64,000 nucleotides of DNA from Emticicia oligotrophica DSM 17448 (lineage in GTDB: Bacteria > Bacteroidota > Bacteroidia > Cytophagales > Spirosomataceae), in NCBI RefSeq assembly GCF_000263195.1, contig NC_018748.1, forward strand, positions 434,001 to 498,000, in the 5' to 3' direction. Below are positions 15,184-33,307 of the stretch, one piece after another. Below the pieces are notes generated by a model, which ran no database searches, was not told where the DNA came from, and saw only the letters and a program-made list of their open reading frames with translations. Each line of letters opens with the position of its first letter. Position 1 is the first letter of the stretch. The position numbers and the translations under genes are program-made.

Positions 15184-15223
15184 AACAACAATAGGATTCA
15201 AAATTTTGAATCCTATTGTTGTT
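15184..15223. terminator. Perfect 40-bp palindrome, bidirectional terminator of ppk1 and lacI-type gene
   Basis: The left arm 15184-15203 is the exact reverse complement of 15204-15223. It begins right after the ppk1 stop and reaches into the stop codon of the convergent LacI-type gene. No extra T-tract follows, but the arm ends (aacaacaa/ttgttgtt) supply weak A/U pairing. Confidence 0.7.
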
Positions 15224-16232
15224 AATGGATAATCAACTTTGTACCAACCACGATTTCTTCATAAGGCGGCATTTCGTTCTTAGGATTTTCGATAATATCT
15301 ATTAAAAGGTCAGTTGCTTTCACACCCATATTATAAGCAAATTGCTCAACCGATGCCAAAGGTGGATTATCCATATAGAAAGTCATTGGTAAATTAGCAA
15401 AGCTAACGAATAAAACATCTTTGTTGGGTATTAGTCCTTTTTGTTTACAAACCTGCATGGCGTATAAAGCCACGTAGTCGTTGAAGGTTAGAATAGCCTC
15501 AGGTGGTTCTTCTAAGCTGAGAAGTTCTTGCATTTTACCAATTGTATCATCTTTCGATAAATCACAAGCTTTGATATATTTTGGAGAAGTAGGTACATTA
15601 AATTTTTGAACAGCTGTCAAATACCCGTTCAATCGTTCATCACATACTTCAAGATTGGATGGACCATTAAGCAGTGCAATACGATTAACCCCTTTATTAA
15701 CTAAATACTCAATAGCTTCAAAAGCACCATCTGTGATACTACAACGTACTTTATTTGCCTCTAAATTACGTGGCACTCTATCAAAAAAAACCAGTGGCGT
15801 ACCAAAGTTTTCTACTTCTTTAAAATGGCTATAATTATTTGTTTCGGCTGCTACTGAGGCAATTACGCCATCTACTCTACTACTTAAAAAAGATTTTAGA
15901 GCTTTTTCTTCTCTATCGAATTTATCACGAGATTGGCTCACAACCACGTTGTAGCCTCTTTCTAAGGCCACATCTTCGATGCCCGAGATTGCCATTGAAA
16001 AAAACTCTTCTTGTAGGTATGGTAATAAAACGCCAATGGTGAAAGTTCGGTTTTTCTTCAAAAAAATGGCTGCGGGATTAGGAACATAGTGCATTGATTT
16101 AGCTAATTCCCATACTCTCTCACGCGTACGCAGACCTATTCGAGTATTATTTTGTAAAGCTCGTGAAACGGTGGAAATAGAGACACCCAACTTCTGTGCA
16201 ATTTCTTTAATGGTAGCCTGATGTCGTTGCAT
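15222..16232 (-). CDS. LacI/GalR family transcriptional regulator
   Basis: A 336-residue DNA-binding repressor-type protein. The N-terminal helix-turn-helix with hinge is canonical: TIKEIAQKLGVSISTVSRALQN followed by YVPNPAAIFLKKNRTFTIGVLLP. A periplasmic-binding-protein-like effector domain follows (residues about 60-336) and ends in a typical VGTKLIIH. It starts 42 bp after the stop of the CRTAC1-type gene and is probably cotranscribed with the haloperoxidase-CRTAC1 pair, so it is a local regulator. Candidate targets are the palindromes at 24912-24929 and 28534-28551. The effector is unknown, probably a sugar or related small molecule. Confidence 0.95.
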   Translation of the reverse strand: MQRHQATIKEIAQKLGVSISTVSRALQNNTRIGLRTRERVWELAKSMHYVPNPAAIFLKKNRTFTIGVLLPYLQEEFFSMAISGIEDVALERGYNVVVSQSRDKFDREEKALKSFLSSRVDGVIASVAAETNNYSHFKEVENFGTPLVFFDRVPRNLEANKVRCSITDGAFEAIEYLVNKGVNRIALLNGPSNLEVCDERLNGYLTAVQKFNVPTSPKYIKACDLSKDDTIGKMQELLSLEEPPEAILTFNDYVALYAMQVCKQKGLIPNKDVLFVSFANLPMTFYMDNPPLASVEQFAYNMGVKATDLLIDIIENPKNEMPPYEEIVVGTKLIIH

Positions 16233-16274: not shown

Positions 16275-17987
16275 TTATCTTTTCTTCCGCCAAAAGTACA
16301 GAGCAATTCCAACAAGTGCAAAGGCAATCAGAAACCATTTTAAAAGTGTTAATTTACTAGTATGAGTTTCTTCTGTAACAGTAACAAGCTGATTTACTTT
16401 CTGATTTTTTAGTGTTTGTTTATATCCGCCCGTCCAATGAACAATGATTTCATCAATTTGTGTAGCGTTTCCTACTCCAAAATGGGCATAAGTAGCATTT
16501 TGCGAAAGATGACTTGAGCCACCACCATCAATCTCACGGTATTGGTGCTTATCTCCTACTACAATTTCTACTTTCGAGGCCAAACCATGAGTTTCTGATT
16601 CAACCCCCTTCAAAGCAATTTTTATCCAATTACCCTTAGCAGAATCATTCCGAAAAAGTTTTGTAGTAGATTCAACAGGATAACCCGCTAAAATTGGATT
16701 TTGATTTACCACTAAAATATCTAAATCTCCATCATTTTCTAAATCAAATACTACTGAGCCACGACCAATTCCATAGTCACCTACCCCTTTCAAACGACCA
16801 ACTTCATTAAACTTCCCACCCACATTATCAAAATAATAATTGGCAATAGGGGTACAATTTGGATTCAAATCGCCATTCACTACATAAAGGTCTAGGTCGC
16901 CATCTTGGTCAAAATCAGCAAAATTTGCTCCCCAGCTAATGGTCATATAACCCAAACCCAATTCACGCGATTTTTCTACAAATGGCTTACCAGCTCCCAT
17001 ATTCACCATAAATTTATTAAAGCGAATATTTGTCACGAAATAATCCATCAAGCCATCATTATTATAATCTCCAACTGCCGAAGCCATCGAATTAATTTTC
17101 AAATCCATGCCCGACTCCTTACTCACATCTTTGAACGAACCCCATGGATACTCATTTTTTAGCAAAATGTCAGGCGTTCTTTTATAGCCAAAATCATGGT
17201 TAATAAAAAGGTCTTGGTCGCCATCGTTATCATAATCGGTAAAAACACCACCAAAACCAAAGCCCTTATGAGTTAGACCATAATCCTTGTAAACATTTTT
17301 AAAGGATTTCCCTTTTTCATTGAGCAATAAATAGCCTTCCGTAATTTGGTTGGCACTAACAATCATATTATCGTTTACAGTACTTAAATCGCCCGGATAT
17401 TCAGTGAAATAATTACCAACATAGAGGTCTGGGTATCCATCCGCATTAAAATCTCCAAAACTGGCCCCCGTACTAAATGAATTAAGCTTTCCTAAACCAA
17501 ACTCGGTGGTAGCATCACGAAATGTATTATTGCCATTATTGATATAAAGTAAATTAATGGCTCTCGGAATTACCTTTTTTTGGCCTTTTGAAGTAATCGT
17601 TGTAATGTATAAATCAACAAAACCATCTCGATTAACATCCGCAGCAACCGCTCCTTGAGTAATGAACTTTTTAGTACCTGTAAGTCCTGATTTTTCGTAG
17701 ATATTCAAAAAACCACCTTTTTTATTGTTCAAATAGAGAACATCATCAGCCATGCCTCCAGTAATAAAAATATCATCAAAGCCATCGTTATTTATGTCAA
17801 AAACACACGCTCCACCACCTAAAAAACCTTCAAAAACCTTAAATTGATGCTTGATACCAGCCTGTTCGGTAATATCGGTAAAAGGGGTTTGAGCCCAAAT
17901 AATTTGGGTGAAAAATAATAGATAGGTATAGATTGAAATTTGTAGAAATCTATACCCAAAGTATAAGTATAATGGCTTTTTTCTCAT
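16275..17987 (-). CDS. CRTAC1-type FG-GAP/ASPIC-UnbV protein with C-terminal membrane anchor
   Basis: A secreted beta-propeller-like protein of about 570 residues. After a signal segment (IYTYLLFFTQIIWAQ) come seven or more FG-GAP/VCBS repeats, each with a calcium-binding DxDxDG-like loop: DINNDGFDD, DVNRDGFVD, DFNADGYPD, DYDNDGDQD, DYNNDGLMD, DFDQDGDLD and DLENDGDLD. An ASPIC/UnbV domain follows (ETHGLASKVEIVVG to VTVTEE). The end is one transmembrane helix plus RKKR, which suggests a membrane-anchored, outward-facing protein. I prefer ATG 17987, which overlaps the upstream stop as ATGA, over ATG 17996. Function unknown. It sits between the haloperoxidase-type and LacI-type genes. Confidence 0.9.
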   Translation of the reverse strand: MRKKPLYLYFGYRFLQISIYTYLLFFTQIIWAQTPFTDITEQAGIKHQFKVFEGFLGGGACVFDINNDGFDDIFITGGMADDVLYLNNKKGGFLNIYEKSGLTGTKKFITQGAVAADVNRDGFVDLYITTITSKGQKKVIPRAINLLYINNGNNTFRDATTEFGLGKLNSFSTGASFGDFNADGYPDLYVGNYFTEYPGDLSTVNDNMIVSANQITEGYLLLNEKGKSFKNVYKDYGLTHKGFGFGGVFTDYDNDGDQDLFINHDFGYKRTPDILLKNEYPWGSFKDVSKESGMDLKINSMASAVGDYNNDGLMDYFVTNIRFNKFMVNMGAGKPFVEKSRELGLGYMTISWGANFADFDQDGDLDLYVVNGDLNPNCTPIANYYFDNVGGKFNEVGRLKGVGDYGIGRGSVVFDLENDGDLDILVVNQNPILAGYPVESTTKLFRNDSAKGNWIKIALKGVESETHGLASKVEIVVGDKHQYREIDGGGSSHLSQNATYAHFGVGNATQIDEIIVHWTGGYKQTLKNQKVNQLVTVTEETHTSKLTLLKWFLIAFALVGIALYFWRKKR

Positions 17988-19324
17988 TTCTTCCATTGCA
18001 AACGAATAATATTTTGAGCTACTTCTTTACCTTTTTCTAAACCTGCTGCATTGTCTTGCGGCACGTGGATTCCTCCATAAAAACGTGAATTGGCTGTTTC
18101 TTCTGCTACCTGCCAAAATGACTCAAAATGACGTGCCTTAAAATCAACATTTCGTAGTTCATCTCGCTTTCTACCCACATGGGCATCATCAGTAAATGAA
18201 AATTTTTCTCCGTATAAACTACTCAATATTGTAGCTGTTGTAGCTGCCTGGATGGCATGCCCCGAAGGAAACGCAGGAAAAGGTGGGTCGGGCCAGAAAG
18301 ACTCCCAAAATTTATCAATATACTTCGGAATGAAGGTATTAGGTCTTTCTGTAAAAAATTTATACTTCCACTTCCAACAATTTGTGAAAGCATCAGCCAC
18401 ACCTATACCTACTTTTGCATAAGTTTCTACGCATTTCATTAGGCTTGGTTTAGCTTTTTTGATTACTAAAGTGGCAAGATAATAAGAGTGTCCCGGAGGC
18501 GTAAAAGTCTCGTCGGGGTCATCTCCCCACCAAATGGCAGCTTCTTTTTGTTCTTGTGTGAGTGTTTTTTCTTTTTGATAAACTGCTAAAAATTGCTTGT
18601 AATAAGCCGAATTGGGTAGTGTATCGTAAGGAATGATGGCAGGATCGGAAATTTGGTGATTAGCTGCCAAAAAAGTACGATTTTCGCCCCAATGCGGTTG
18701 AAGCGGATAATGGCTAAATGATTGACCATAAAGGGGTGGTTGCCAAGAACCTAAGCGACTCGGGTACTTCATTTTTTTATCGAAGTTTCGCAAATAGCCA
18801 CGATGCCCTCCATCTGTTTTCGACCATTCAAAGATAGTTTGGGCAATAGATTTTCCGTAAGATACAGACCTATCTATCAATGCTTTATCAGAATTTTGTT
18901 CGGTATAATATTCAAGAAAAGTTTTTTCTAGCGAATCAATTTTTGCTTTATTGAGGTCTGAGGTTTGATTATAAATATTTTTTAAGATGGTAGCTTGTGC
19001 AGCATTGAGCGAAAGTCGCCAATCATATTTTTTATCTTTTTCAGGCAAAGGCAAAATAGCTAAACTATCTAATTGACCAGCCAAAGAAGTATAGGTCGGG
19101 TCGGAATGAACAAATGATTCATACATTGTCAAACCGATATATCCTAAACAACGAGAAGCATAATTAGGTGAATTAGAAGGCGTATTTTTAGTAATGTAGA
19201 GTGTCATATCGGCCCATTTCAAGGCCAAATCTTGCTCAGTTAGTGTTTCTTTAGGTTTACAACTGATACTGATTCCCCCCACTACAATTGTCAATAACAA
19301 TAATGTAAGTATTTGTTTTTTCAT
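17984..19324 (-). CDS. Secreted vanadium-dependent haloperoxidase / PAP2 superfamily protein
   Basis: A 446-residue member of the superfamily shared by vanadium haloperoxidases and PAP2 phosphatases. The full active-site signature is present with exact spacing: K320-x6-R327-P328, P353-S-G-H356, and S413-R414-x5-H420-x3-D424. In haloperoxidases these residues hold vanadate and His420 is the covalent ligand; in phosphatases they hold phosphate. Sequence alone does not decide between the two. The N-terminus has a signal with a lipobox-like SISC (Cys22), so it is exported. It is coupled to the CRTAC1-type gene by a 4-bp overlap and follows the susD terminator by about 140 bp, so it likely has its own promoter. 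Confidence 0.9.
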   Translation of the reverse strand: MKKQILTLLLLTIVVGGISISCKPKETLTEQDLALKWADMTLYITKNTPSNSPNYASRCLGYIGLTMYESFVHSDPTYTSLAGQLDSLAILPLPEKDKKYDWRLSLNAAQATILKNIYNQTSDLNKAKIDSLEKTFLEYYTEQNSDKALIDRSVSYGKSIAQTIFEWSKTDGGHRGYLRNFDKKMKYPSRLGSWQPPLYGQSFSHYPLQPHWGENRTFLAANHQISDPAIIPYDTLPNSAYYKQFLAVYQKEKTLTQEQKEAAIWWGDDPDETFTPPGHSYYLATLVIKKAKPSLMKCVETYAKVGIGVADAFTNCWKWKYKFFTERPNTFIPKYIDKFWESFWPDPPFPAFPSGHAIQAATTATILSSLYGEKFSFTDDAHVGRKRDELRNVDFKARHFESFWQVAEETANSRFYGGIHVPQDNAAGLEKGKEVAQNIIRLQWKK

Positions 19325-19528: not shown

Positions 19529-21412
19529 TTATTGCGTATGTCCAGGGTTTTGAACCAACTTCGGATTTCGCTTAACTTCATCTCTACTCAAAGCACGGTA
19601 ATACATTTTATCCGTCCACTTACGAGTTTCGTTTGAAGTATTATCTTCAACTGTATAAGTATAATCGTACAATGTTCTATCATATTTGTAAATAGCTGGT
19701 GCTTTTGCTCCCGCCTTTAACTTAGCATCTACATTGATTGATTTAATACCACGACCTACTGTTTCTGCAGGAATCATCCAACGACGAGCATCATGATAAC
19801 GGTGCTCTTCGTACACCAACTCAACGCGGCGTTCGTTACGAAGTCTGTCTCTCAGTGCAGTACCTTTATCAGCAACAGCAGGCATACCCGCTCTAAATCT
19901 GATACGGTTAATCCATTTAAGAGCTTCTGCTTCATCTCCAGTTTCAATACAAGCTTCGGCATAGCTTAATGCCATTTCAGTATAACGAATAAACGGCCAA
20001 GGAATAACCTGTGCAGATGATTGGTTATCGGCTAAAGCTGGATTCGGGTCAATAAACTTGCGAGTATAATAGTGAGTACGGCTACCATTCCAGTTTTCTA
20101 CTGTTGATTCACGGGTATCAATTCCATTAATTTTACCGCCTTTTCCATCATCATAATAACCAGTCTGAATTTGGTTTGCTGGGTCTAAGCCAGCTACATC
20201 TGAAGGTCTTGGTTTCCAAGAAGCACCATCGTAAAGAACAGTTGCATAGAAACGAGGGTCACGGTCATCATAAGGAGCTGCTTTATGCTTAGGATTACTC
20301 CAGCTAAACTTAGTTCCATCCATCATTTCATAATCATCAACTAAGTTTTGGATTGGTGTATTTCCTGCCCAGTTATGGTAACCATTTGGTCCGTTATTAA
20401 TACCATAGTGAATACCGCCTAAAGGCCAGTTATCTTCTTCAGTGTAAAGAGCCGTGTGCGTACGTTGGAAAATCAATTCTGAAGCAGCAGCGGCATCACC
20501 AACTGCACTTTGTCCGCCCATTGCAATTGAGATGTAGTTATTTTTACCTTCTTCAGCTGAAACTGGAGCAGTTAAATTCATTTTATAACCAACACCTGCA
20601 TCTAAAACCGCTTTTGCAGCAGCTTTAGCAGCATTCCATCTTGCAGCACGGTCGCCTGAAGGATAAGCAATTAAATCAAGGTTTGCATAGCTAGCTAAGA
20701 TACTTGATTTTGCTTTTACAGTTGGGCCATCGTGAAGGTCGCTGGCAGCGTATAATAATACACGAGCTTTCAGAGCCATTGCAGCCAATTTCGATGTTCT
20801 ACCTGGTGTAAGAGTCTTGCCATCAAGCTTCTTAATTGCATTATCTAAGTCACTTACAATAAATTTCACACACTCATCATAAGTATTACGAGGGGCTGTA
20901 TAGTCTTCATCTAAACCGTAAGCTTTGCTAATAAGTGGTACACCACCGTAGAAACGAAGTAATTGTTGGTAATAATAGGCACGTAAAAAATAGGCTTCAC
21001 CCAACAATTTTTCCTTTAAAGTTGCATCACTAAATGTTGCTTTTGGAAGATTTTCAATTGCTACGTTAGCTTGTCTGATTGCCAAATACATGGTACTCCA
21101 CTTATAGGTATCACTTTCCCAAGCTAGGTTATTTGGGCTTTCAGTTCCTTCTGTGAAAGTATTGATATTACGACCTGCGTGCGTAAACATCGCCTCGTCA
21201 GTATAAGCAGCTAAAGCTTGTTCTTCAAAACCACCATAGCCAAGAAACGAATAAACATTAAATATAAATGCTTCTGCTAAGGCACCATCGCCCCAAGTAG
21301 CAGCACTCGAAATTTTATCGAGGGGTTTGGTATTCAAAAATTCCTTATCACACGATAAAGCAAAAGCCATTAAGATTGCAAACAGGCTTGCTTTTATTTT
21401 TATATTCTTCAT
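19529..21412 (-). CDS. SusD/RagB family nutrient-binding lipoprotein
   Basis: Surface-exposed substrate-binding lipoprotein that forms the lid on its SusC transporter. The signal ends at ALSC (Cys21), followed by DKEFLNTKPLDKIS, the typical SusD start. TPR-like helices follow: AEAFIFNVYSFLG, LGEAYFLRAYYYQQLLRFYGGVPL and ALKARVLLYAASDL. The RagB/SusD C-terminal domain has IPWPFIRYTEMALSYAEACIETGD, INRIRFRAGMP and RDRLRNERRVELVYEEHRYHDARRW. At 627 residues it is somewhat long. It is 15 bp after susC on the same strand, so they form one operon. The ligand is unknown; no polysaccharide-degrading enzyme is next to the pair. Confidence 0.96.
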   Translation of the reverse strand: MKNIKIKASLFAILMAFALSCDKEFLNTKPLDKISSAATWGDGALAEAFIFNVYSFLGYGGFEEQALAAYTDEAMFTHAGRNINTFTEGTESPNNLAWESDTYKWSTMYLAIRQANVAIENLPKATFSDATLKEKLLGEAYFLRAYYYQQLLRFYGGVPLISKAYGLDEDYTAPRNTYDECVKFIVSDLDNAIKKLDGKTLTPGRTSKLAAMALKARVLLYAASDLHDGPTVKAKSSILASYANLDLIAYPSGDRAARWNAAKAAAKAVLDAGVGYKMNLTAPVSAEEGKNNYISIAMGGQSAVGDAAAASELIFQRTHTALYTEEDNWPLGGIHYGINNGPNGYHNWAGNTPIQNLVDDYEMMDGTKFSWSNPKHKAAPYDDRDPRFYATVLYDGASWKPRPSDVAGLDPANQIQTGYYDDGKGGKINGIDTRESTVENWNGSRTHYYTRKFIDPNPALADNQSSAQVIPWPFIRYTEMALSYAEACIETGDEAEALKWINRIRFRAGMPAVADKGTALRDRLRNERRVELVYEEHRYHDARRWMIPAETVGRGIKSINVDAKLKAGAKAPAIYKYDRTLYDYTYTVEDNTSNETRKWTDKMYYRALSRDEVKRNPKLVQNPGHTQ

Positions 21413-21427
21413 ATTTTAATTTTAGAT

Positions 21428-24400
21428 TTAGAATGATAAACTTAAACCTGTATTGATTACGCGAGATTGTGGGTAGTAAACTCCACTTTGAGCTGTTGCT
21501 TCAGGGTCAAAAATTTTGTTTTTGCTGAATGTCAACAAGTTCAATCCATTTACATAAACTCTTACGTTTCCAAGTTTTACTTTGTCGGTAAATTTCGAAG
21601 GAATAGCATATCCTAATTCTAAGTTTTTCAAACGAATGTAATCTTTGCTAAATAAGTAGTATGTATTATTTCCGTAGTTACCACCTGTATAATAGGTATC
21701 ACCTCTACTTGCCAAACGTGGGTCTGTGCTGCTAGGGTTATCGATTGTCCATCTGTGGTCATAAGAGTATTTCAAGAAATTACCGATATCCCCTGATTCA
21801 GTTTGAATACGGATAGCTGCACCTGCTGCACCTTGGAATAAGATGTTTAGGTCAAATCCTTTATAACGTACATCGATTGTTGCACCGAAGTTGAATGTTG
21901 GTGTTTCGTTTTTGTCCAATCTTACTTGGTCATCACCAGTGATTTTTCCGTCACCGTTATAATCAACAAACTTCATATCCCCTGGTATTAACTTAGAGGT
22001 AACAGCCGAGTAGTCAATCTTATTAGCATCAATCGCAGCGGCATCTTTAAATACTCCATCCGATTTATACACTAAGAAACCATTAATTGGCTTACCTTCT
22101 TGTAATTGGTAGCTTGGTGCACCCGGAATTTCATCCATGAAAATAACACGGTTTTTAGCATAACCACCATTGATGGCTGCTCTGAAAGTAAGGTCTTGTG
22201 TTGCTTTTCCGTTGTATCCGACATTAAATTCAAAACCACGGTTATCAACAATACCTGCATTTACAGGAGGCAATAATGAGTTAATACCAGATGAAGATGG
22301 CGTTGAACCAGTTTTTTGAATCAAGATTTGGTCACGACGATTGTAGAAATATTCTAATGTCGCATCGATTTTTCCATTCAAGAATGTACCATCTAAACCA
22401 ACGTTGTAGTTATTTGCTCTTTCCCAAGTAAAGTTAGGGTTCGCTAATACTGTTTCTTTCAAAGTTGTAACAACTTGGTTGTTGATTGGGTAGCGTCCGA
22501 AACCATAAGTAGATAAGAATGCATATTCTTGTAAACGGCTGTTATAGAATACTTGGTCATTACCCATTTGGCCGTAAGAAGCACGGATTTTCAAATAATC
22601 GATACCTTGTACTTTGAAGAAATCTTCGTTAGTCAAGTTCCATCCAATCAAGAGACCAGGGAAGAAACCAAATCTCTTAGCTTCTGGGAAGATGTACGAA
22701 CCATCATAACGATAGATACCCTCGATGAGGTATTTTTCTTTGTAGTTATATTGTAAACGGCCATAATAACCCAAACGTGCACGATTATACGCACTACCAT
22801 CAGTATTTTGTTGAAGCGAACCACCCGCAAACAATTGGTCAATTGCTGGAGAGATATAATTTCTTCTATATGCCAAGAAATTATCACCCTTAAATACTTC
22901 TTTAGTTACCCCTACTAATGCCGATAGATTATTGTTTTCATTAATCTTCTTATCATAAGTAAGCATGGCAGTAAGGTTGGTATTCAATACAGAGCGGTAG
23001 CTTTGTGTCAAACGTGGGTCTTTAAAGTTAGAGCGAATAGCTCCTTCTAATTTTGGTGTTACACCATCAGCTTCGAAAGATTTTTTATCCCAATAGTATA
23101 ATGACCAAGGTGTTTGCCAAACTTTGGTAGTTTCACTCGTTCTATCAATAGCACCAGATAATGTCAATTTCAAACCATCAATCCAAGGGTTTGTAATATT
23201 TACACCACCATTTGCTTGGATATAATCAGTTGGTGTTTGACGGTAACCGGTGGCATTTGTAGTAATTACATAAGGGTTTTGACCATTTTCGATATCAGGA
23301 CCCGGCATTCCGTTTGGCCATACTTCTGGCTCAGTCGGACGGCCACGCATCAACATTCTAAAAATTGCTCCAGCATCCTCAGTTGGATATCTACGGTCTT
23401 CTCTTCTAACCATAATACCTAAGTTAGTATTGATATACTTATTTACTTTAGCATCAAGGTTTGTACGGAAATTATATTGCTTATAATTAGTTGCCGAGTT
23501 TTTATAGTAAGCATCTTGGCTAACATAGCCCAAAGAAGCCATATACTTAACAGCATCAGTACCACCCGATAACTGTAAATTATGACGTGCTTGTGGCGAG
23601 AATGTCTTGAAAGCATCACCAAACCAATCTGTGTTGGGGTATCTCCAAGGGTCATTACCTGCTGCATAACCTTTCACAGCTTCTGGGCTGTAGTTTGCAC
23701 TCAATGAAGAAACACCCGGTGTTGGAGATTTATAAACGCCTGTTGTTTTGATTGCTTGCCATGCAGAAGACCATTCACTTGCAGGAATTGACTTATAAAT
23801 TGGTAGTTCATTCATAATTGCCGCATACTCAGAAGCACTCGACATCTTCGGAATCATTGCCGGTTGTGAAAAACCTTGGTTAAAATCATAGCTGATTGTT
23901 GGTTTACCTGATTTACCACGTTTGGTTGTTACCAAGATAGCACCATTGGCAGCTCTAGCACCATAGATTGCAGCAGAAGCATCTTTCAAAACCGAAATAG
24001 ATTCAATATCACGTGGGCTCAAACGACCTAAACCACCATCGCGGTCAGGAATACCATCAATAACCACTAATGGGCTACTATTTCCTAGTGTATTTGTACC
24101 GCGAATTGATATTTTTGCTCCGTCATTTCCTGGTTCACCACTTGTCTGGATAACAACTAGACCAGGAAGGCGACCTGCCAATGAGTTTGAAATATCAGTT
24201 GCTGGAGATTTGATGATTTTTTCTCCCTGTACTGCAACAACAGCACCTGTAACAGTTACTTTCTTTTGTGTACCATAACCTACAACAACAACTTCGCTCA
24301 AAGCTTTGGTGTCAGTTTCGAGAGCTACATCAATCACAGACCGACCATTTACAGGTACTTCCTTCGTCACGAAGCCAATGTAAGAAATAACCAAAGTAGT

Positions 24401-24625
24401 ATTTTTACCTGCAGCAATAGAGTAATCTCCATTAACATCAGAAATACTACCTGTATTTGTACCTTTAACCAACACACTCACGCCTGGGAGTCCCTGCCCT
24501 TTGTCGTCAGAGATCTTTCCCTTTACATTTTGTGCTATTGCATTAGTAAAGATAGTGAAAAAAAGCATCGCCAATAAGACATTAAACTTCTTATTGAGAT
24601 GTCTACACCGAGTAGAAATAATCAT
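21428..24625 (-). CDS. SusC/RagA family TonB-linked outer-membrane transporter
   Basis: A 22-strand TonB-dependent barrel that imports the ligand captured by SusD. Order: signal (VLLAMLFFTIFTNAIAQ), CarboxypepD_reg-like domain (VKGKISDDKGQGLPGVSVLV to SYIGFVTKEVPV), the SusC signature region LSEVVVVGYGTQKK, plug domain (SNSLAGRLPGLVV, RGTNTLGNSSPLVVIDGIP, ISVLKDASAAIYGARAANG), then the barrel ending in NTGLSLSF. Length 1065 residues is normal. There is no anti-sigma FecR-type gene nearby, so control by the LacI-type protein is more likely. The start is ATG 24625; the n-region MIISTRCRHLNKKFN is long but acceptable. Its upstream region is 532 bp and holds operator-like sites. Confidence 0.97.
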   Translation of the reverse strand: MIISTRCRHLNKKFNVLLAMLFFTIFTNAIAQNVKGKISDDKGQGLPGVSVLVKGTNTGSISDVNGDYSIAAGKNTTLVISYIGFVTKEVPVNGRSVIDVALETDTKALSEVVVVGYGTQKKVTVTGAVVAVQGEKIIKSPATDISNSLAGRLPGLVVIQTSGEPGNDGAKISIRGTNTLGNSSPLVVIDGIPDRDGGLGRLSPRDIESISVLKDASAAIYGARAANGAILVTTKRGKSGKPTISYDFNQGFSQPAMIPKMSSASEYAAIMNELPIYKSIPASEWSSAWQAIKTTGVYKSPTPGVSSLSANYSPEAVKGYAAGNDPWRYPNTDWFGDAFKTFSPQARHNLQLSGGTDAVKYMASLGYVSQDAYYKNSATNYKQYNFRTNLDAKVNKYINTNLGIMVRREDRRYPTEDAGAIFRMLMRGRPTEPEVWPNGMPGPDIENGQNPYVITTNATGYRQTPTDYIQANGGVNITNPWIDGLKLTLSGAIDRTSETTKVWQTPWSLYYWDKKSFEADGVTPKLEGAIRSNFKDPRLTQSYRSVLNTNLTAMLTYDKKINENNNLSALVGVTKEVFKGDNFLAYRRNYISPAIDQLFAGGSLQQNTDGSAYNRARLGYYGRLQYNYKEKYLIEGIYRYDGSYIFPEAKRFGFFPGLLIGWNLTNEDFFKVQGIDYLKIRASYGQMGNDQVFYNSRLQEYAFLSTYGFGRYPINNQVVTTLKETVLANPNFTWERANNYNVGLDGTFLNGKIDATLEYFYNRRDQILIQKTGSTPSSSGINSLLPPVNAGIVDNRGFEFNVGYNGKATQDLTFRAAINGGYAKNRVIFMDEIPGAPSYQLQEGKPINGFLVYKSDGVFKDAAAIDANKIDYSAVTSKLIPGDMKFVDYNGDGKITGDDQVRLDKNETPTFNFGATIDVRYKGFDLNILFQGAAGAAIRIQTESGDIGNFLKYSYDHRWTIDNPSSTDPRLASRGDTYYTGGNYGNNTYYLFSKDYIRLKNLELGYAIPSKFTDKVKLGNVRVYVNGLNLLTFSKNKIFDPEATAQSGVYYPQSRVINTGLSLSF

Positions 24626-24676
24626 AAGTTTTTGTAGGTTTAAAAATTTGATTTAAAAAAAGGTGAATACAACGAC

Positions 24677-24695
24677 TATCGAATAGAATTCGATA
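24677..24695. repeat. Palindrome in the susC leader
   Basis: tatcgaat (24677-24684) and attcgata (24688-24695) are perfect 8-bp arms around aga. It lies about 52 bp upstream of the susC ATG, where it would fall in the 5' leader or act as a protein-binding site. Function unknown. Confidence 0.4.
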
Positions 24696-24870
24696 TTGAA
24701 CAGGCTTCATAGGTTAGTTTAATTAACATAACTTTTAGTGCGATAAAAATCGCCATGAACAAGGCAAAAAACGTTAAGAGAGAGCATTTAAGCCCTGCAA
24801 GTTGCAATAATGATATAAACAATACAATATTGATTTGTACTATTCAAATTAAAACTTATTTAAAATACCT

Positions 24871-24929
24871 GTGCAATCGTTTGAAATGTATCATTTATTG
24901 AAGCATACCTTTGTGCAAAGGTTTGCACA
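24871..24929. promoter_or_regulatory. Composite operator-like element upstream of susC and the large FG-GAP gene
   Basis: Two sites lie here. Site B, gtgcaatcgtttgaa (24871-24885), is an imperfect palindrome with a central CG, like many LacI-family operators. Site A (24912-24929) is a perfect palindrome, tgtgcaaa-GG-tttgcaca. Their centres are 42 bp apart, about four helical turns. The same two sites recur in mirror image at 28534-28592 with identical spacing. The local LacI-type protein is the obvious candidate binder. The remainder of the 532-bp gap (24626-25157) holds a palindrome at 24677-24695 and a -7 match at 25085-25092. Confidence 0.65.
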
Positions 24930-25084
24930 TATTTGATATTTTTTATTGTAAAAGCCCTATTTTAAGCTGTAAGAAAGATTGTTTTGAGGCTGTCTACCTA
25001 CCTTACTTTGCTAGTACACAGACTTGTTTTTAGAATTCGCTGATATCGAAGAACTTATTATAAATATTAATTACCCAATATCTT

Positions 25085-25092
25085 TATATTTG
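25085..25092 (+). promoter_or_regulatory. -7 promoter element of the large FG-GAP lipoprotein gene
   Basis: TATATTTG matches TAnnTTTG. It implies a transcript start near 25097 and a leader of about 60 nt before ATG 25158. It also argues against the upstream in-frame GTG at 25092 as the start. I do not see a clear -33 TTTG. Confidence 0.4.
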
Positions 25093-25157
25093 TGTGCCTA
25101 TTTTTATTTTTGAGGTATTTCCTGACAAAAAAAGTTTTTAGCCCTATCAAAAAAAAC

Positions 25158-28100
25158 ATGAAAATATTCAAGTTTGTATCCTTATCGATATTCATGTGTT
25201 TATTCATTATTAGCTGTAAAGAAACAGCTCAAAAAACCGATAATGGTACTGAATCTGATAAACAACCCCCAATTTTTAAATTACTTTTTTCTGACAAAAC
25301 TCATATCGATTTTCAGAATATCATCAATGAAGGCCTTAATACCAATGTATTGATGTATGAATACTTCTATAATGGTGGTGGAGTGGCCGTTGGTGATGTC
25401 AATGGCGATGGATTCGAAGACCTCTACTTTACAAGTAATATGCAACAAAATAAGTTGTATCTGAATAAAAAAAACATGGAATTTCAAGACATAACAAATC
25501 AAGCTGGAGTAGCTGGAAGAGAAGGCCCATGGAAAACAGGTACAACAATGGTAGACATAAATGCTGATGGAAAACTAGATATCTACGTGTGTCATTCGGG
25601 CAACCTTATGCCTGAAAAAAAGGCAAACGAACTTTTCATTAATCAAGGTAATGGCCCTGACGGTATCCCGATATTTGTAGAAAAAGCTAAAGAATATGGT
25701 CTTGACAGCCCCGCTTCAAGTACCAATGCCTACTTTTTTGATGCCGATAAAGATGGTGATTTGGATGTTTTTTTGCTCAATCATAATATAAAATCTTTAC
25801 CAGTACTTGATGAAGCTCGTACGGCAGCCCTTATGAAAGAAGACGATGCTGTCAGTGGTTCGAGGTTTTATCGAAACGACAAAGGTTTCTTCCGTGACGT
25901 AACCCGCCAAGTAGGTATCCAAAGTTCGGCACTATCTTATGGCTTAGGTGCTGGAATTGCTGATTTCAACCAAGATAACTGGCCTGATATATATGTAAGT
26001 AACGATTATGCTGTGCCCGACCGCCTTTATATCAATAACAAAAATGGCACATTTAAAGAAGTAAGTCGAGAACAATTGGGGCATACTTCTAATTTCTCAA
26101 TGGGCAATGATGTTGCGGATATCAATAACGACCAATTACCTGATATTTTTACCCTTGATATGCTTCCAGAGGATAATCGCCGTCAGAAGCTTTTAATGTC
26201 ACCCGATAATTATGATAAGTTTGATTTAGGCGTGAAATCTGGTTTTCATTATCAGTATATGCGAAATATGCTTCAACTCAATAACGGCAATGGCACTTTT
26301 AGTGAAATTGGACAGGTTTCTGGCATTTCGAATACCGATTGGAGTTGGGCAGCACTTTTTGCCGATTATGATAATGATGGATGGAAAGATTTATACATAA
26401 CTAATGGTTATTTGCATGATTATACCAATCTTGATTTCTTGAAATATATGGATGACCTCATGGCCAGTAAACAAGGCGGTTTCCAACGTCAAGATGTACT
26501 TGATTTAGTACAAAAAATGCCTTCTTCAAATGTAAAAAATTATATTTTCAGAAATAATGGTTCATTGCTATTCAAAGACCAAACCACCAATTGGGGTATG
26601 GGTGAACAATCGAATAGTAGTGGAGCGGCGTATGCCGATTTAGACAATGATGGAGACTTAGATTTGGTTGTCAATAATATTAATTCTCCTGCATTTATTT
26701 ATCAAAATGAGTCTAACGAAAAAGTTCAAAATCAATACTTAAAAGTTAAACTTAATGGCGAAAATAATAATAGAATGGGCATTGGGGCAAAGATTTACCT
26801 CTATAACGGCACTTCTTCACAATACCAAGAGCAAATGCCTACTCGTGGCTACCAATCGAATGTGAGTTTTACGATGAATTTTGGTTTAGGTAAAAGTAAA
26901 CAAATTGACTCCTTAAAAGTTGTTTGGAATTCAGGCAAAGTACAGGTATTTAAAGGAGTAAAAGCCAACCAAACATTAACATTAGAGGAAAAAAATGCAA
27001 GTGTTCAAAAAAGCTCATCTTCTCCTATCAGCCCTATTTTTAGTTCTATTAATTCACCAATTGCTTCAACTCAAAACACCGTTACAATTAATGATTTCAA
27101 AAGACAAATTTTATTAATTAATTCTGAGTCTTTTGTAAGCCCGATTTTGTCGAAAGGAGATGTAAACAACGATGGCTTAGAAGATATCTTCGTGGGCGGA
27201 AGCTATGGCAAACCATCTGAAATTTTCATACAAATGGCTGGCGAGAAATTTACAAAAAAAACATTCCCAGCCAATCCAAACGCAGATGTATCTGATGCCA
27301 TATTCTTTGATGCCAATGGAGATGGATTCCAAGATATCTATGTAGCCAATGGTGGGTATAATAATTTTACTGAAAATGATGTAAACTTGCAAGACCAGTT
27401 ATTTTTAAATAATGGAAAAGGCGATTTTCAGTTAAGCACCTCTGCCCTTCCGCAAATGCTTACAAGTACGGGATGCGTGCGAGTAGCTGACATAAATAAT
27501 GATAAAAAACCAGACCTTTTTGTAGGTGGAAGAGTTGTTCCTGGAAAATTTCCAATTTCGCCGAGAAGCTATGTACTCATCAATGATGGCAAAGGAAACT
27601 TCAAAGATACGACACCCGAAGAAATGAAGTTTATGGGTATGGTTACAGATGCCGCTTTTGTAGATTTGAATAAGGACAAAAAGCAGGAGTTAATAGTAGT
27701 AGGTGAATGGATGCCTATTACCGTTTTTGAAGCGAATGGCACTTCCTTCACCAACAAAACGGAAGAATACTTTGAAAAAAAGCTATCGGGTTGGTGGAAT
27801 AAACTTGTTGTTGCAGACCTCAACAATGATGGAAGCCCAGAATTACTCATCGGAAATTTAGGTTTAAATTCTCAATGTAAAGTAGATGACAAGCAACCTG
27901 CCGAACTCTATTACAAAGATTTTGATGATAACGGTAGCATAGACCCTATACTTTGTTTCTACATACAAGGACAGAGCTATCCGTATCTTACTCGCGATGA
28001 ACTTTTAGAGCAAGTGCCAAGTAAACGCCCTAAGTTTACCAACTATGATAGTTACTCTAACGCAAAGTTGACAGATATTTTTGGCGAAGACGAATTAACA

Positions 28101-28487
28101 GATGCAAAGAAATTAGAAGTAAACTATTTAAAAACAGCTTATTTTAGCCAAAATAGTAATGGAAAGTTTGAAGAAAAGACATTACCGATAGAAGTACAGT
28201 TTGCACCAATTCACACAATTTCAGTAACAGATTATAATCAAGATGGTAAAAAAGACCTGATTCTTTGCGGAAATATCAATAAAACTCGACTCAAATTTGG
28301 TAAATATGATGCTAATTATGGCCTTTTACTTAAAGGAGATGGCAAAGGTAATTTTAGTGCTATTCCACAGCAAAAATCTGGATTTAATATTCAAGGAGAT
28401 GTTCGCTCGGCATTAGAATTCAAAGATTATATCCTTTTAGGCATTAATCAACAAGGTATCAAAGCATTCAAAAAAAGCAGGCAATAA
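25158..28487 (+). CDS. Large FG-GAP/VCBS repeat lipoprotein with ASPIC/UnbV domain (CRTAC1-like)
   Basis: An exported lipoprotein of about 1109 residues with signal and lipobox IISC (Cys20). It has two blocks of FG-GAP repeats. The first block has seven calcium-loop motifs (DVNGDGFED, DINADGKLD, DADKDGDLD, DFNQDNWPD, DINNDQLPD, DYDNDGWKD, DLDNDGDLD) and ends in an ASPIC/UnbV domain around GIGAKIYLYNGTSSQYQEQM. The second block has DVNNDGLED, DANGDGFQD, DINNDKKPD, DLNKDKKQE, DLNNDGSPE, DFDDNGSID and DYNQDGKKD. ATG 25158 is chosen because it gives a proper signal peptide. It diverges from susC and is bracketed by the mirrored operators. Its role is unknown; such proteins often accompany SusCD pairs in this phylum. 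Confidence 0.9.
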   Translation: MKIFKFVSLSIFMCLFIISCKETAQKTDNGTESDKQPPIFKLLFSDKTHIDFQNIINEGLNTNVLMYEYFYNGGGVAVGDVNGDGFEDLYFTSNMQQNKLYLNKKNMEFQDITNQAGVAGREGPWKTGTTMVDINADGKLDIYVCHSGNLMPEKKANELFINQGNGPDGIPIFVEKAKEYGLDSPASSTNAYFFDADKDGDLDVFLLNHNIKSLPVLDEARTAALMKEDDAVSGSRFYRNDKGFFRDVTRQVGIQSSALSYGLGAGIADFNQDNWPDIYVSNDYAVPDRLYINNKNGTFKEVSREQLGHTSNFSMGNDVADINNDQLPDIFTLDMLPEDNRRQKLLMSPDNYDKFDLGVKSGFHYQYMRNMLQLNNGNGTFSEIGQVSGISNTDWSWAALFADYDNDGWKDLYITNGYLHDYTNLDFLKYMDDLMASKQGGFQRQDVLDLVQKMPSSNVKNYIFRNNGSLLFKDQTTNWGMGEQSNSSGAAYADLDNDGDLDLVVNNINSPAFIYQNESNEKVQNQYLKVKLNGENNNRMGIGAKIYLYNGTSSQYQEQMPTRGYQSNVSFTMNFGLGKSKQIDSLKVVWNSGKVQVFKGVKANQTLTLEEKNASVQKSSSSPISPIFSSINSPIASTQNTVTINDFKRQILLINSESFVSPILSKGDVNNDGLEDIFVGGSYGKPSEIFIQMAGEKFTKKTFPANPNADVSDAIFFDANGDGFQDIYVANGGYNNFTENDVNLQDQLFLNNGKGDFQLSTSALPQMLTSTGCVRVADINNDKKPDLFVGGRVVPGKFPISPRSYVLINDGKGNFKDTTPEEMKFMGMVTDAAFVDLNKDKKQELIVVGEWMPITVFEANGTSFTNKTEEYFEKKLSGWWNKLVVADLNNDGSPELLIGNLGLNSQCKVDDKQPAELYYKDFDDNGSIDPILCFYIQGQSYPYLTRDELLEQVPSKRPKFTNYDSYSNAKLTDIFGEDELTDAKKLEVNYLKTAYFSQNSNGKFEEKTLPIEVQFAPIHTISVTDYNQDGKKDLILCGNINKTRLKFGKYDANYGLLLKGDGKGNFSAIPQQKSGFNIQGDVRSALEFKDYILLGINQQGIKAFKKSRQ

Positions 28488-28533
28488 AGCAGATTCATTA
28501 TATGGTTTCTTGAAATGATGCAAATTTCAATTC

Positions 28534-28592
28534 TGTGCAAAGGTTTGCAATTCAATATTAAAGCTTGAATTCTACTATTCAAACGATTGCAC
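28534..28592. promoter_or_regulatory. Mirror-image copy of the composite operator element
   Basis: Site A copy 28534-28551 (tgtgcaaa-GG-tttgcaat, two mismatches in the right arm) is followed by ttcaaacgattgcac (28578-28592). The latter is the exact reverse complement of site B at 24871-24885. The gap between sites is 26 bp, identical to the first element, although the spacer sequence differs. It lies between the FG-GAP lipoprotein stop and galK. Confidence 0.65.
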
Positions 28593-28647
28593 TGAATGTT
28601 ATCTTGAGTGCTCAGCAAAACTTAGAAAATTATCATTAAAAAATTAG

Positions 28648-28743
28648 TAATTTTGGTTTATAATTAAGTAGAAAGAATCAAAAGTGATTAAGTTAACAAA
28701 ACATTGAGTAGAAGCCCCTAAGTTTCTTGGGGCTTTCTTTTTA
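28648..28743 (+). ncRNA. Possible short transcript or attenuated galK leader
   Basis: A -7 match, TAATTTTG (28648-28655), is followed about 55 nt later by an intrinsic terminator (28712-28743). A transcript of roughly 80 nt with no convincing reading frame is predicted. It could be a small RNA or a prematurely ended leader of galK, whose ATG is 71 bp past the terminator. No clear -33 element is visible, so this is tentative. Confidence 0.3.
28712..28743 (+). terminator. Intrinsic terminator upstream of galK
   Basis: Arms aagcccc (28712-28718) and ggggctt (28729-28735) with a 10-nt loop, followed by the T-rich run tctttttat (28736-28744). Classic rho-independent form. It stops transcripts coming from the FG-GAP gene or from the -7 match at 28648. 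In the 327-bp gap 28488-28814 I see nothing else beyond the operator copy. Confidence 0.8.
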
Positions 28744-28814
28744 TCATTTAATATACAGATTAAGTATATGATTCAAACTGCTTATTGTATTAACGAATAC
28801 TACCGAACTCTCTT

Positions 28815-29990
28815 ATGCTAGATAATATTTTAACCAAAAAGTTTAAAGACTACTTTGGTGAAAATCCTCATTTATTAGTTCGTGCCCCAGGACGTATTAA
28901 CTTAATAGGAGAACACACCGATTATAACAAAGGCTTTGTGCTTCCTGCCGCCATTGATAAAGCAATTTACTATGCTATTGCCCCTCGTAATGATAATACA
29001 TGTGTGGCTTACGCTTTCGACTTAGATGATTCTTTCACATTTTCGATTGATAATTTAGTAAAATCTGAAAAAGGTTGGGCTAATTTCCTGATTGGTGTTG
29101 TTGCCGAAATCATCAATACTGGTGTAGAAATAAAACAGGGCTTTAATGTTATTTTTGGCGGAGATGTTCCTCTCGGTGCAGGCTTATCTTCATCAGCCGC
29201 AGTTGAAAGCGGAATGGGTTTTGCCCTAAATAGTATTTTTGATTTAGGTCTATCTAAACTAGATTTAGCCCTCATTGCCCAAAAAGCTGAGCATAATTAT
29301 GCTGGAGTGAAATGCGGAATCATGGATATGTTTGCTTCAATTCATGGTAAAGAAAATTCAGTAATTAAACTCGACTGCCAAGACCTAAGCTTCGAATATT
29401 TTCCCTTTGCATTCCCTGACTATTCGATTGTTCTTTGTAATACAGGAGTAAAGCATAATTTAGGTGATAGTGAATACAACCAACGTCGTGATGAATGTGA
29501 GGAAGGGGTAAGAATCTTACAAAGAGCCTTTCCACAAATAGAAAGCCTGCGTGATGTCAGTTTCCAAATGCTACGTAGTCAAGCAGATAAATTACCTCCG
29601 GTAGTTTATAAACGCTGTAAATATGTTGTCGAAGAAATTGAAAGAGTTACGAATGCCTGTCAAGCACTTGAAAAAGCAGACCTAGCTACCTTCGGACAAA
29701 AAATGTATGAAACCCACGAAGGATTAAGTAATGAGTACGAGGTGAGTTGTGAAGAACTCGACTTTTTAGTGGAGCAAACACATCATTTAGATACAGTTAT
29801 TGGTGCACGCATGATGGGCGGTGGCTTTGGTGGATGTACAATTAATCTAGTAAAGGCTAATAAAACTACTGAATTTATCGAACAAATGAGTAGTGCATAT
29901 AATAAGCAATTTTCTACCCCTTTGCAGTGTTACTTAGTTCAAATTTCAAATGGAGTTGAGTTATTAACAGAAGAATATTCTATGAGCTAA
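28815..29990 (+). CDS. galK: Galactokinase
   Basis: Phosphorylates alpha-D-galactose at C1 with ATP, the entry step of the Leloir pathway; cytosolic GHMP kinase of 391 residues. All three family motifs are present: GRINLIGEHTDYN near the N-terminus, PLGAGLSSSAAVESG (ATP loop) near residue 120, and GARMMGGGFGGCTINL near residue 335. The start MLDNILTKKFKDYFG fits the family. No galT, galE or galactosidase is in the window, so it stands apart from the rest of the pathway. It is followed 70 bp later by glpD on the same strand. Confidence 0.97.
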   Translation: MLDNILTKKFKDYFGENPHLLVRAPGRINLIGEHTDYNKGFVLPAAIDKAIYYAIAPRNDNTCVAYAFDLDDSFTFSIDNLVKSEKGWANFLIGVVAEIINTGVEIKQGFNVIFGGDVPLGAGLSSSAAVESGMGFALNSIFDLGLSKLDLALIAQKAEHNYAGVKCGIMDMFASIHGKENSVIKLDCQDLSFEYFPFAFPDYSIVLCNTGVKHNLGDSEYNQRRDECEEGVRILQRAFPQIESLRDVSFQMLRSQADKLPPVVYKRCKYVVEEIERVTNACQALEKADLATFGQKMYETHEGLSNEYEVSCEELDFLVEQTHHLDTVIGARMMGGGFGGCTINLVKANKTTEFIEQMSSAYNKQFSTPLQCYLVQISNGVELLTEEYSMS

Positions 29991-32384: not shown

Positions 32385-33307
32385 GAACTTGTTTAGGATT
32401 AACTTTTATATTTAATTTTTCGTAAAAAACGAACTGAGAATGCCAATAAATTTAAAGCCACCCAGTTAATTGCTTTCGTTTCAAACCTGACAAGTAATGC
32501 TTTGAAACTATCCATCCAAGCATTAGCGTGCTCAATGAGTACTCGTCGTTTGTATAACTCTTCATCAAAATGCTGATATTCAGTAGATTGATTTTCTATT
32601 TTGTTATTTCGAGAATTAACATCAATATTGGCTTCAATTTCTTTATTTTTACAAATTTGACGAAATTCTTTGCTATCGAATCCAGCATCAGCATTTAGAA
32701 AAAGGCCTCTGAGATTAATTCCTGCTTTTATGAGCATTTGACACAGTTCTTCAAAGAGTTCCTGAATATTATAAAGGTCGTTGTGTTTTCCTTCTTGTGG
32801 GCTGGCACATGCCAACATTTGTCCCTGATTATCAGCTAAAAAGAGCAAATTAGTTGTTTTTGATGCTTTTCGACCTTGATACCCAACAGCTTCACCTCCA
32901 CGTTTGGCAAGTGTATGACTACCATCAAGTTGGATACAAGATAAGTCTAAATATGAATAGTTTGATGCTAAAATATTTATCCAAACTTTTGTCCAAGAGC
33001 CGTCCTTGACCCATTCATTAAAGTGATAATAGACTCCTTGCCATGTTAAAACCTTATTATTAAAAAATTGCTTTACTGGCAGTTGACGCCATTGACAACC
33101 TGTTTTCAAACGATATAAAATTGCTGAAACAATAGCTGTCAACTGTTCTATTTCACACTCTTTTCCACGTAAACCAATACTTAAATTTGGTAATATATAT
33201 TGTTCAATCGTATTTTTACTCAAGATTTCCACTGTAGGTCTTTTTGATGATTCGCACCACAAAATTCAACCTATTTTGGGAATCTTTTTATAATACTAAA
33301 CAACCTC
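32385..33307 (-). mobile_element. Intact IS5-family insertion sequence with TAA target duplication
   Basis: About 923 bp. The ends are inverted repeats of 17 bp with 14 matches: gaacttgtttaggatta (32385-32401) against gaggttgtttagtatta read inward from 33307. Direct TAA copies flank it (32382-32384 and 33308-33310), the 3-bp TNA-type duplication known for some IS5 subgroups. One uninterrupted transposase frame fills it. The element sits between the exported-protein gene and the fadJ terminator. Confidence 0.85.
32399..33262 (-). CDS. IS5 family transposase (DDE)
   Basis: A 287-residue transposase in a single frame. The N-terminal part (IEQLTAIVSAILYRLKTGCQWRQLP) is the DUF4096-like DNA-binding region of IS5 elements. 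The catalytic triad is visible as Asp113 in QLDGSHT, Asp192 in LNADAGFD and Glu244 in RRVLIEHANAW, with the usual Arg-x3-6-Glu arrangement around the last. GGEAVGYQGRKASKTTN is typical of this branch. No frameshift or stop interrupts it, and the ends of the element are preserved, so it may still be active. Confidence 0.95.
   Translation of the reverse strand: MWCESSKRPTVEILSKNTIEQYILPNLSIGLRGKECEIEQLTAIVSAILYRLKTGCQWRQLPVKQFFNNKVLTWQGVYYHFNEWVKDGSWTKVWINILASNYSYLDLSCIQLDGSHTLAKRGGEAVGYQGRKASKTTNLLFLADNQGQMLACASPQEGKHNDLYNIQELFEELCQMLIKAGINLRGLFLNADAGFDSKEFRQICKNKEIEANIDVNSRNNKIENQSTEYQHFDEELYKRRVLIEHANAWMDSFKALLVRFETKAINWVALNLLAFSVRFLRKIKYKS

Follow-up and report, generated by a model that had tools for sequence, protein, structure and literature searches.

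Genes and paired sites at the locus

The window analysed here is a stretch of 64,000 nucleotides from Emticicia oligotrophica DSM 17448 (contig NC_018748.1, positions 434,001 to 498,000), and its features under study are two pairs of palindromic sites, one 5′ of a susC gene and one 5′ of the galactokinase gene galK, which are probably double operators of a LacI-family regulator encoded at the same locus. On the minus strand, susC (21428-24625) is followed by susD (19529-21412), a gene for a PAP2/vanadium haloperoxidase-like protein (17984-19324), a gene for a smaller FG-GAP/UnbV-ASPIC protein (16275-17996) and lacI (15222-16232), whose product matches the Pfam families LacI and Peripla_BP_1, has CcpA and PurR among its solved relatives, and is the probable binder of the sites. 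The intergenic distances along this run are, from susC to lacI, 15 bases, 204 bases, a 13-base overlap and 42 bases; on these distances, the susC run probably ends with lacI, although the 204-base gap could house a promoter. On the plus strand, a gene for a large FG-GAP/UnbV-ASPIC protein (25158-28487, ATG at 25158) lies between the two pairs and is followed by galK (28815-29990) and then by a glycerol-3-phosphate dehydrogenase-like gene.

Each pair consists of two even palindromes, A and B, both within the 16-22 bp range of LacI operators, with the half-site GTGCAA and the half-site spacing common to both; A is imperfect. Site A, GTGCAATCGTTTGAA, occupies 24871-24885, and 28578-28592 holds its exact reverse complement. 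For site B, TGTGCAAAGGTTTGCA, the positions are 24912 and 28534, and the two B 18-mers are identical at 16 of 18 bases, the second having an AT end in place of CA. Pair 1 (24870-24929) comprises A1 (24870-24887, minus strand, CG centre), proximal to susC, and the distal B1 (24912-24929, minus strand, centre GG/CC). Pair 2 (28534-28593), the mirrored copy, comprises B2 (28534-28551, plus strand), distal to galK, and A2 (28576-28593, plus strand, CG centre), proximal to it. The computed centres (24878.5 and 24920.5 in pair 1, 28542.5 and 28584.5 in pair 2) are 42 bp apart in each pair and the two spacers are unlike, confirming the recurrence of A and B and the equal distances described in an earlier, sequence-only reading of this DNA, which had also proposed LacI-type sites. 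The same reading stated that the pair order is inverted and that the pairs bracket the large FG-GAP gene. Both statements are true of the positions; relative to the gene faced, however, the order is identical, with B far and A near in both pairs (susC on the minus strand, galK on the plus strand). The mirror image therefore results from the opposite directions of susC and galK, and the bracketing follows from the gene order of this genome, the pairs facing susC and the galK leader.

No further position in the window was within four mismatches of the idealised 18-mer TGTGCAAACGTTTGCACA. Across the whole genome (5,220,361 bases in 6 contigs; G000 below, other G labels denoting the genomes of relatives), the shared motif GTGCAAWSGTTTGMA had four exact matches, all of which are the sites described here, and a scatter of equally good, randomly spaced exact copies was not found. 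Two other features were noted nearby: a short odd palindrome, TGCAAGTTGCA (24796-24806), is kept 5′ of susC in four genomes and is perhaps near the susC promoter, and an IS4/5-type transposase gene (32399-33262) lies downstream of the locus.

Conservation of the sites and of their spacing

Three sets of genomes were compared: 11 Emticicia genomes (genus set), 222 genomes of the family, and 296 genomes of the class, of which 3 are within the family. An orthologue of the LacI protein (81-100% identity) was present in 7 of the 11 Emticicia genomes. The susC-side pair was found at 42 bp in G000, G004, G005 and G007, which are the four genomes that carry this susC, and A1 has counterparts in the last three. 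The galK-side pair was spaced 42 bp in G000 and G007 and 43 bp in G004, G005 and G010; B2 had counterparts in six other Emticicia genomes, and A2 was degraded in G006, at a distance of 42 bp, and decayed past recognition in G009, where it was placed by hand. In G001, G002, G003 and G008, the four genus members that lack the LacI orthologue, no 42-43 bp pair was seen. A paralogue, susC′, is 54-55% identical to susC; G004, G006, G009 and G010 carry it at this locus, and in G005 it sits together with galK on another contig. Locus L061 of G004 holds both the susC and the susC′ pair, head to head.

In the family set, the pair pattern TGCAAWSSWTTG-N(15-45)-CAAWSSWTTG, covering centre distances of 25-55 bp, returned 15 distinct places, of which ten are spaced 42-43 bp and the remaining five 26, 32, 33, 51 and 55 bp, compared with one forward and two reverse hits for the reversed-pattern control. 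Nine of these ten places are in Emticicia and are related by descent, so the ten do not represent ten independent events; the tenth, in another genus (G045), lies between galK and a divergent lacI whose product is 59% identical. When 91 family genomes were scanned at 16-46 bp, all 15 places found were spaced 20, 22, 42 or 43 bp, and the control gave a single hit. Outside the family, no 42-43 bp pair was found in the class set, the 11 places detected there having spacings of 21, 21, 22, 27, 28, 30, 33, 33, 39, 40 and 45 bp.

A home-made score was applied to the 700 bases 5′ of lacI at 24 LacI loci outside Emticicia, 17 of them encoding proteins at 59-67% identity and 7 at 53-57%. The two best sites were 42-43 bp apart in 4 of the 17 orthologues (G045, G043, G089 and G202, the last three all at 43 bp). 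The pair lies between lacI and a divergent galK in G045, G043 and G089, and between lacI and a divergent susC in G202, where galK ends the sus run. Six of the seven relatives at 53-57% identity had sites 21-22 bp apart (22 bp in G196, G197, G074, G097 and a second copy in G011; 21 bp in G015), and the seventh (G112) had no clear pair. Double sites at 22 bp were also observed just 5′ of lacI, near susC, in other genera (L156:8571-8607, L155:7915-7951 and L157:8319-8355).

The spacers between A and B fail to align among species. Recent duplication, which the sequence-only reading had already doubted, is unlikely given the occurrence of 42-43 bp in other genera with unrelated spacers. That the pairs are remnants of a duplicated intergenic region whose spacing was retained by descent only is barely credible: the two pairs of this locus do have site sequences of 15-16 bp in common, but spacers are unalike both within and between species while the spacing holds in several genera, which disfavours descent as the sole cause. 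The suggestion of looping across 3.6 kb is not supported by the comparison. The two pairs are separated by 3.62 kb in G000, by 3.74 kb in G007 and by 9.08 kb in G004, and one pair only is present in the sequence examined of G010, G006 (degraded), G045 and G202 (the sequence of G043 and G089 excluded the susC side). A loop was therefore rejected as an essential feature, and it is very unlikely that the two pairs join in one long-range loop across 3.6 kb, since the inverted order that speaks for such a structure is accounted for by gene direction.

Separate from this locus, a LacI-type double site at 21 bp was observed at L089:6386-6427 (G000:C5:1132390-1132420), 5′ of another susC/susD pair that is followed by a myo-inositol oxygenase gene, with a further site at L089:11635; this 21-bp pair is also present in G004, G005, G007 and G010. 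In L090, GTGCAATCGTTTGCTC occurs as a lone site flanked by a HEAT/DUF7133 gene and a ROK gene, and no partner was apparent by eye.

A terminated element between pair 2 and galK

A conserved element of approximately 75 nt, a terminated leader or small RNA, lies 5′ of galK on the plus strand (28667-28742) and is closed by an intrinsic terminator (28710-28742). It is preceded by a putative −7 element, TAATTTTG (28648-28655, plus strand), read from the sequence by its likeness to the −7 consensus TAnnTTTG; the counterpart in relatives is mostly TATTTTTG, or TATATTTG, a few bases further 3′. The latter sequence also occurs at 25085-25092, where it may serve the large FG-GAP gene as its −7 element, and is found there in the four relatives compared. 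The element is present as a single copy in all seven Emticicia genomes with the LacI orthologue and in none of the four without it. In two of the seven genomes, one C-G pair of the terminator is changed to U-A, with both sides altered, and the element folds weakly better than shuffled sequences (z of −2.71 for 80 nt and −1.66 for 77 nt). Rfam covariance models, run over 24500-29000 at E up to 1, gave no match at 28667-28742, the sole match (26958-27074) being far below its gathering score, and, outside Emticicia, a BLAST search of 58 genomes returned only weak partial hits, in three distant ones.

The galK ATG follows the T-run after 72 nt in G000 and after 26-36 nt in the six relatives. As the shorter gap hardly leaves room for a promoter of its own, galK in these relatives is probably reached by read-through of the terminator, which could also serve the large FG-GAP gene. 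A home-made terminator scan of 16 lacI-galK gaps in other genera detected a terminator on the galK strand in three, which are exactly the three with a 42-43 bp pair (G045, G043 and G089). The terminated element in these genomes differs from that of Emticicia: a conserved block, AAGGTTAAAATTTAGGTAGA, is followed by the hairpin GAAACTATGC and a T-run, 5′ of galK (L167, L168 and L172, the gaps of G089, G043 and G045, respectively). Two of the three genomes belong to one genus, and they thus represent two lineages, not three; because the upstream gene is divergent in all three, the terminator should end a transcript begun within the gap.

Near the 5′ end of the Emticicia RNA, AGUAGAAAGAAUCA is complementary, except at one position, to UGAUUAUUUCUACU at the susC start. 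Pair 2 may mainly drive a small RNA, and not galK, with the 5′ end of this RNA pairing with the susC start and tuning SusC synthesis, although we consider this doubtful. The co-occurrence of the element with the LacI orthologue suits such an RNA, as does the finding that susC ranks first by ungapped complementarity among 358 gene starts (those of the window, of five loci chosen for site-like hits and of 20 spaced 20-kb stretches), with susC codons 1-6 invariant in four genomes and the following codons diverging fast. However, susC ranks only 13th of 358 by duplex energy, a value reached by 169 of 2000 shuffled RNAs, and susC contains four other stretches in which 6-7 consecutive codons are invariant; conservation is also good at the susD start. 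The seed is altered in two of the three genomes that lack this susC but is retained in G009, and the second lineage has no such complementarity (susC was within the DNA examined for G045 only). The 26-36 nt gaps of the six relatives also leave too little space for a separate galK promoter, so that a galK leader fits better than a free-standing RNA. A third exact genomic copy of the RNA 5′ motif (G000:C5:173958) was discarded, as it is inside an open reading frame.

The complementarity to the susC start is a lead that is only suggestive. The wider scheme, in which one LacI-type regulator would act through four-turn double operators to drive both the sus operon and a short RNA pairing with the susC start, is graded as unlikely, a little below the small RNA itself; if true, a feed-forward loop that combines transcription with an RNA would match uptake to galactose phosphorylation.

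Proposed double operators and known systems

The reading that we favour, at a probability of roughly two in three, is that the pairs are double operators of the LacI-family protein encoded at 15222-16232 and govern the sus run and the galK side. Two dimers would bind the same side of the helix at a distance of four turns, with A next to the gene served and B farther from it. Pair 1 would govern the susC-susD-PAP2-FG-GAP-lacI run, and lacI, as part of this run, is probably itself controlled by pair 1; pair 2 would govern the transcript that enters galK via the conserved terminated leader. B has strong half-sites without the usual CG centre, and A has a CG centre with a poor inner half-site. Each site thus appears suboptimal individually, and because each is imperfect alone, joint occupancy probably sets the response. 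The sites recur at a conserved spacing together with this LacI and with galK; the binding protein, the cooperativity and the sign of regulation are proposed from the sequence, and the effector is probably galactose or a related sugar. The paired sites are real, conserved and helically phased, and as predicted double operators they most likely belong to a galactose-linked LacI regulator.

At up to two mismatches, GTGCAAWSGTTTGMA has 56 forward and 49 reverse matches in the genome, compared with 28 and 27 for the reversed-pattern control; near-matches being common, the argument rests on exact copies and spacing. Several observations weigh against this reading. Spacing itself can arise by chance: a looser pattern, scanned at 16-46 bp in the 11 Emticicia genomes, hit 39 distinct places, many of them at spacings due to chance, and also hit the control; of the 11 places at 42-43 bp, nine are at this locus and two elsewhere. 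The latter (G005:C35 and G009:C3, both at 42 bp) each sit within a reading frame of 1046 aa and are best regarded as a single chance match inherited by both genomes. In five Emticicia genomes, susC′ has one recognisable upstream site only. Among the orthologues at 59-67% identity, 13 of 17 have no clear 42-43 bp pair and show weak second sites at other distances (G077, one of the 13, has a weak second site at 43), indicating that this LacI group can do without the pair and that the spacing is kept in part of it only. The putative −7 element is 64-70 bp 3′ of the A2 centre, which is not a classical repressor position, and contact between dimers 42 bp apart is an assumption of the model.

A further difficulty is the systematic difference between the site centres. 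In a table of 12 pairs, the B centre was CC (six), GG (three) or GC (three), and so non-CG in all 12, and the A centre was CG in 10, TG in one and GC in one; centres read by eye outside this table were TG for B and CG for A in G202, TG and CA in G089, and AG and CA in G043. Two different LacI-family proteins could therefore bind A and B, forming an AND or OR gate, and the genome has six LacI-like matches at E 0.001. Such a division is improbable, however, as the half-site GTGCAA and the half-site spacing are the same in A and B, the pairs co-occur with one LacI orthologue, and both G045 sites adjoin its lacI. An additional weak site halfway from A to B, which would place three dimers at 21-bp steps, was considered and rejected, the mean score at offset 21 (6.59) forming no peak.

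The locus provides a testable candidate regulon (the sus transporter, the FG-GAP and haloperoxidase-like proteins, galK and lacI), together with a candidate leader or small RNA beside galK. Some orthologues at 42-43 bp and several more distant relatives at 20-22 bp also form a natural series for possible cooperation between LacI-type dimers.

The RNA can be compared with the FopS small RNAs of Bacteroides thetaiotaomicron, which comprise 14 paralogues with canonical sigma-ABfr promoters, bind near the susC mRNA start codon and repress susC translation (PMC11697453). The element described here would resemble them if it is a small RNA and pairs near a susC start, but unlike FopS it is one candidate, genus-restricted element beside galK and below LacI-type operators.

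For the operators, the reference is the LacI-regulon comparison of Ravcheev et al. (2014). This study (PMC4052901) describes tandem sites 5′ of 1118 operons, with distance peaks at 13, 22 and 32 bp, of which the 22 and 32 bp peaks were taken to indicate cooperative binding of two dimers, and a central CG in the even motifs of 1173 of 1251 transcription factors; the word Bacteroidetes does not occur in that paper. The present sites resemble those tandem operators in being even palindromes of 16-22 nt, with more than one site 5′ of an operon, at multiples of the helical step, and differ in their distance of 42-43 bp and in the absence of a central CG from B. Characteristics of LacI tandem operators found here are a nearby LacI gene, even palindromes and a helical-multiple spacing kept in part of the orthologues. 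Double sites at 21-22 bp are described for RafR of Enterobacteriales and ScrR of Burkholderiales (PMC4052901); as in those groups, a regulator group has a fixed double-site spacing, although the distance here is four turns (42 bp) compared with two, outside 21-22 bp. Four-turn spacing as a conserved class was not described in the literature searched on LacI operator spacing and on LacI in Emticicia, but it extends a known kind of switch only modestly.

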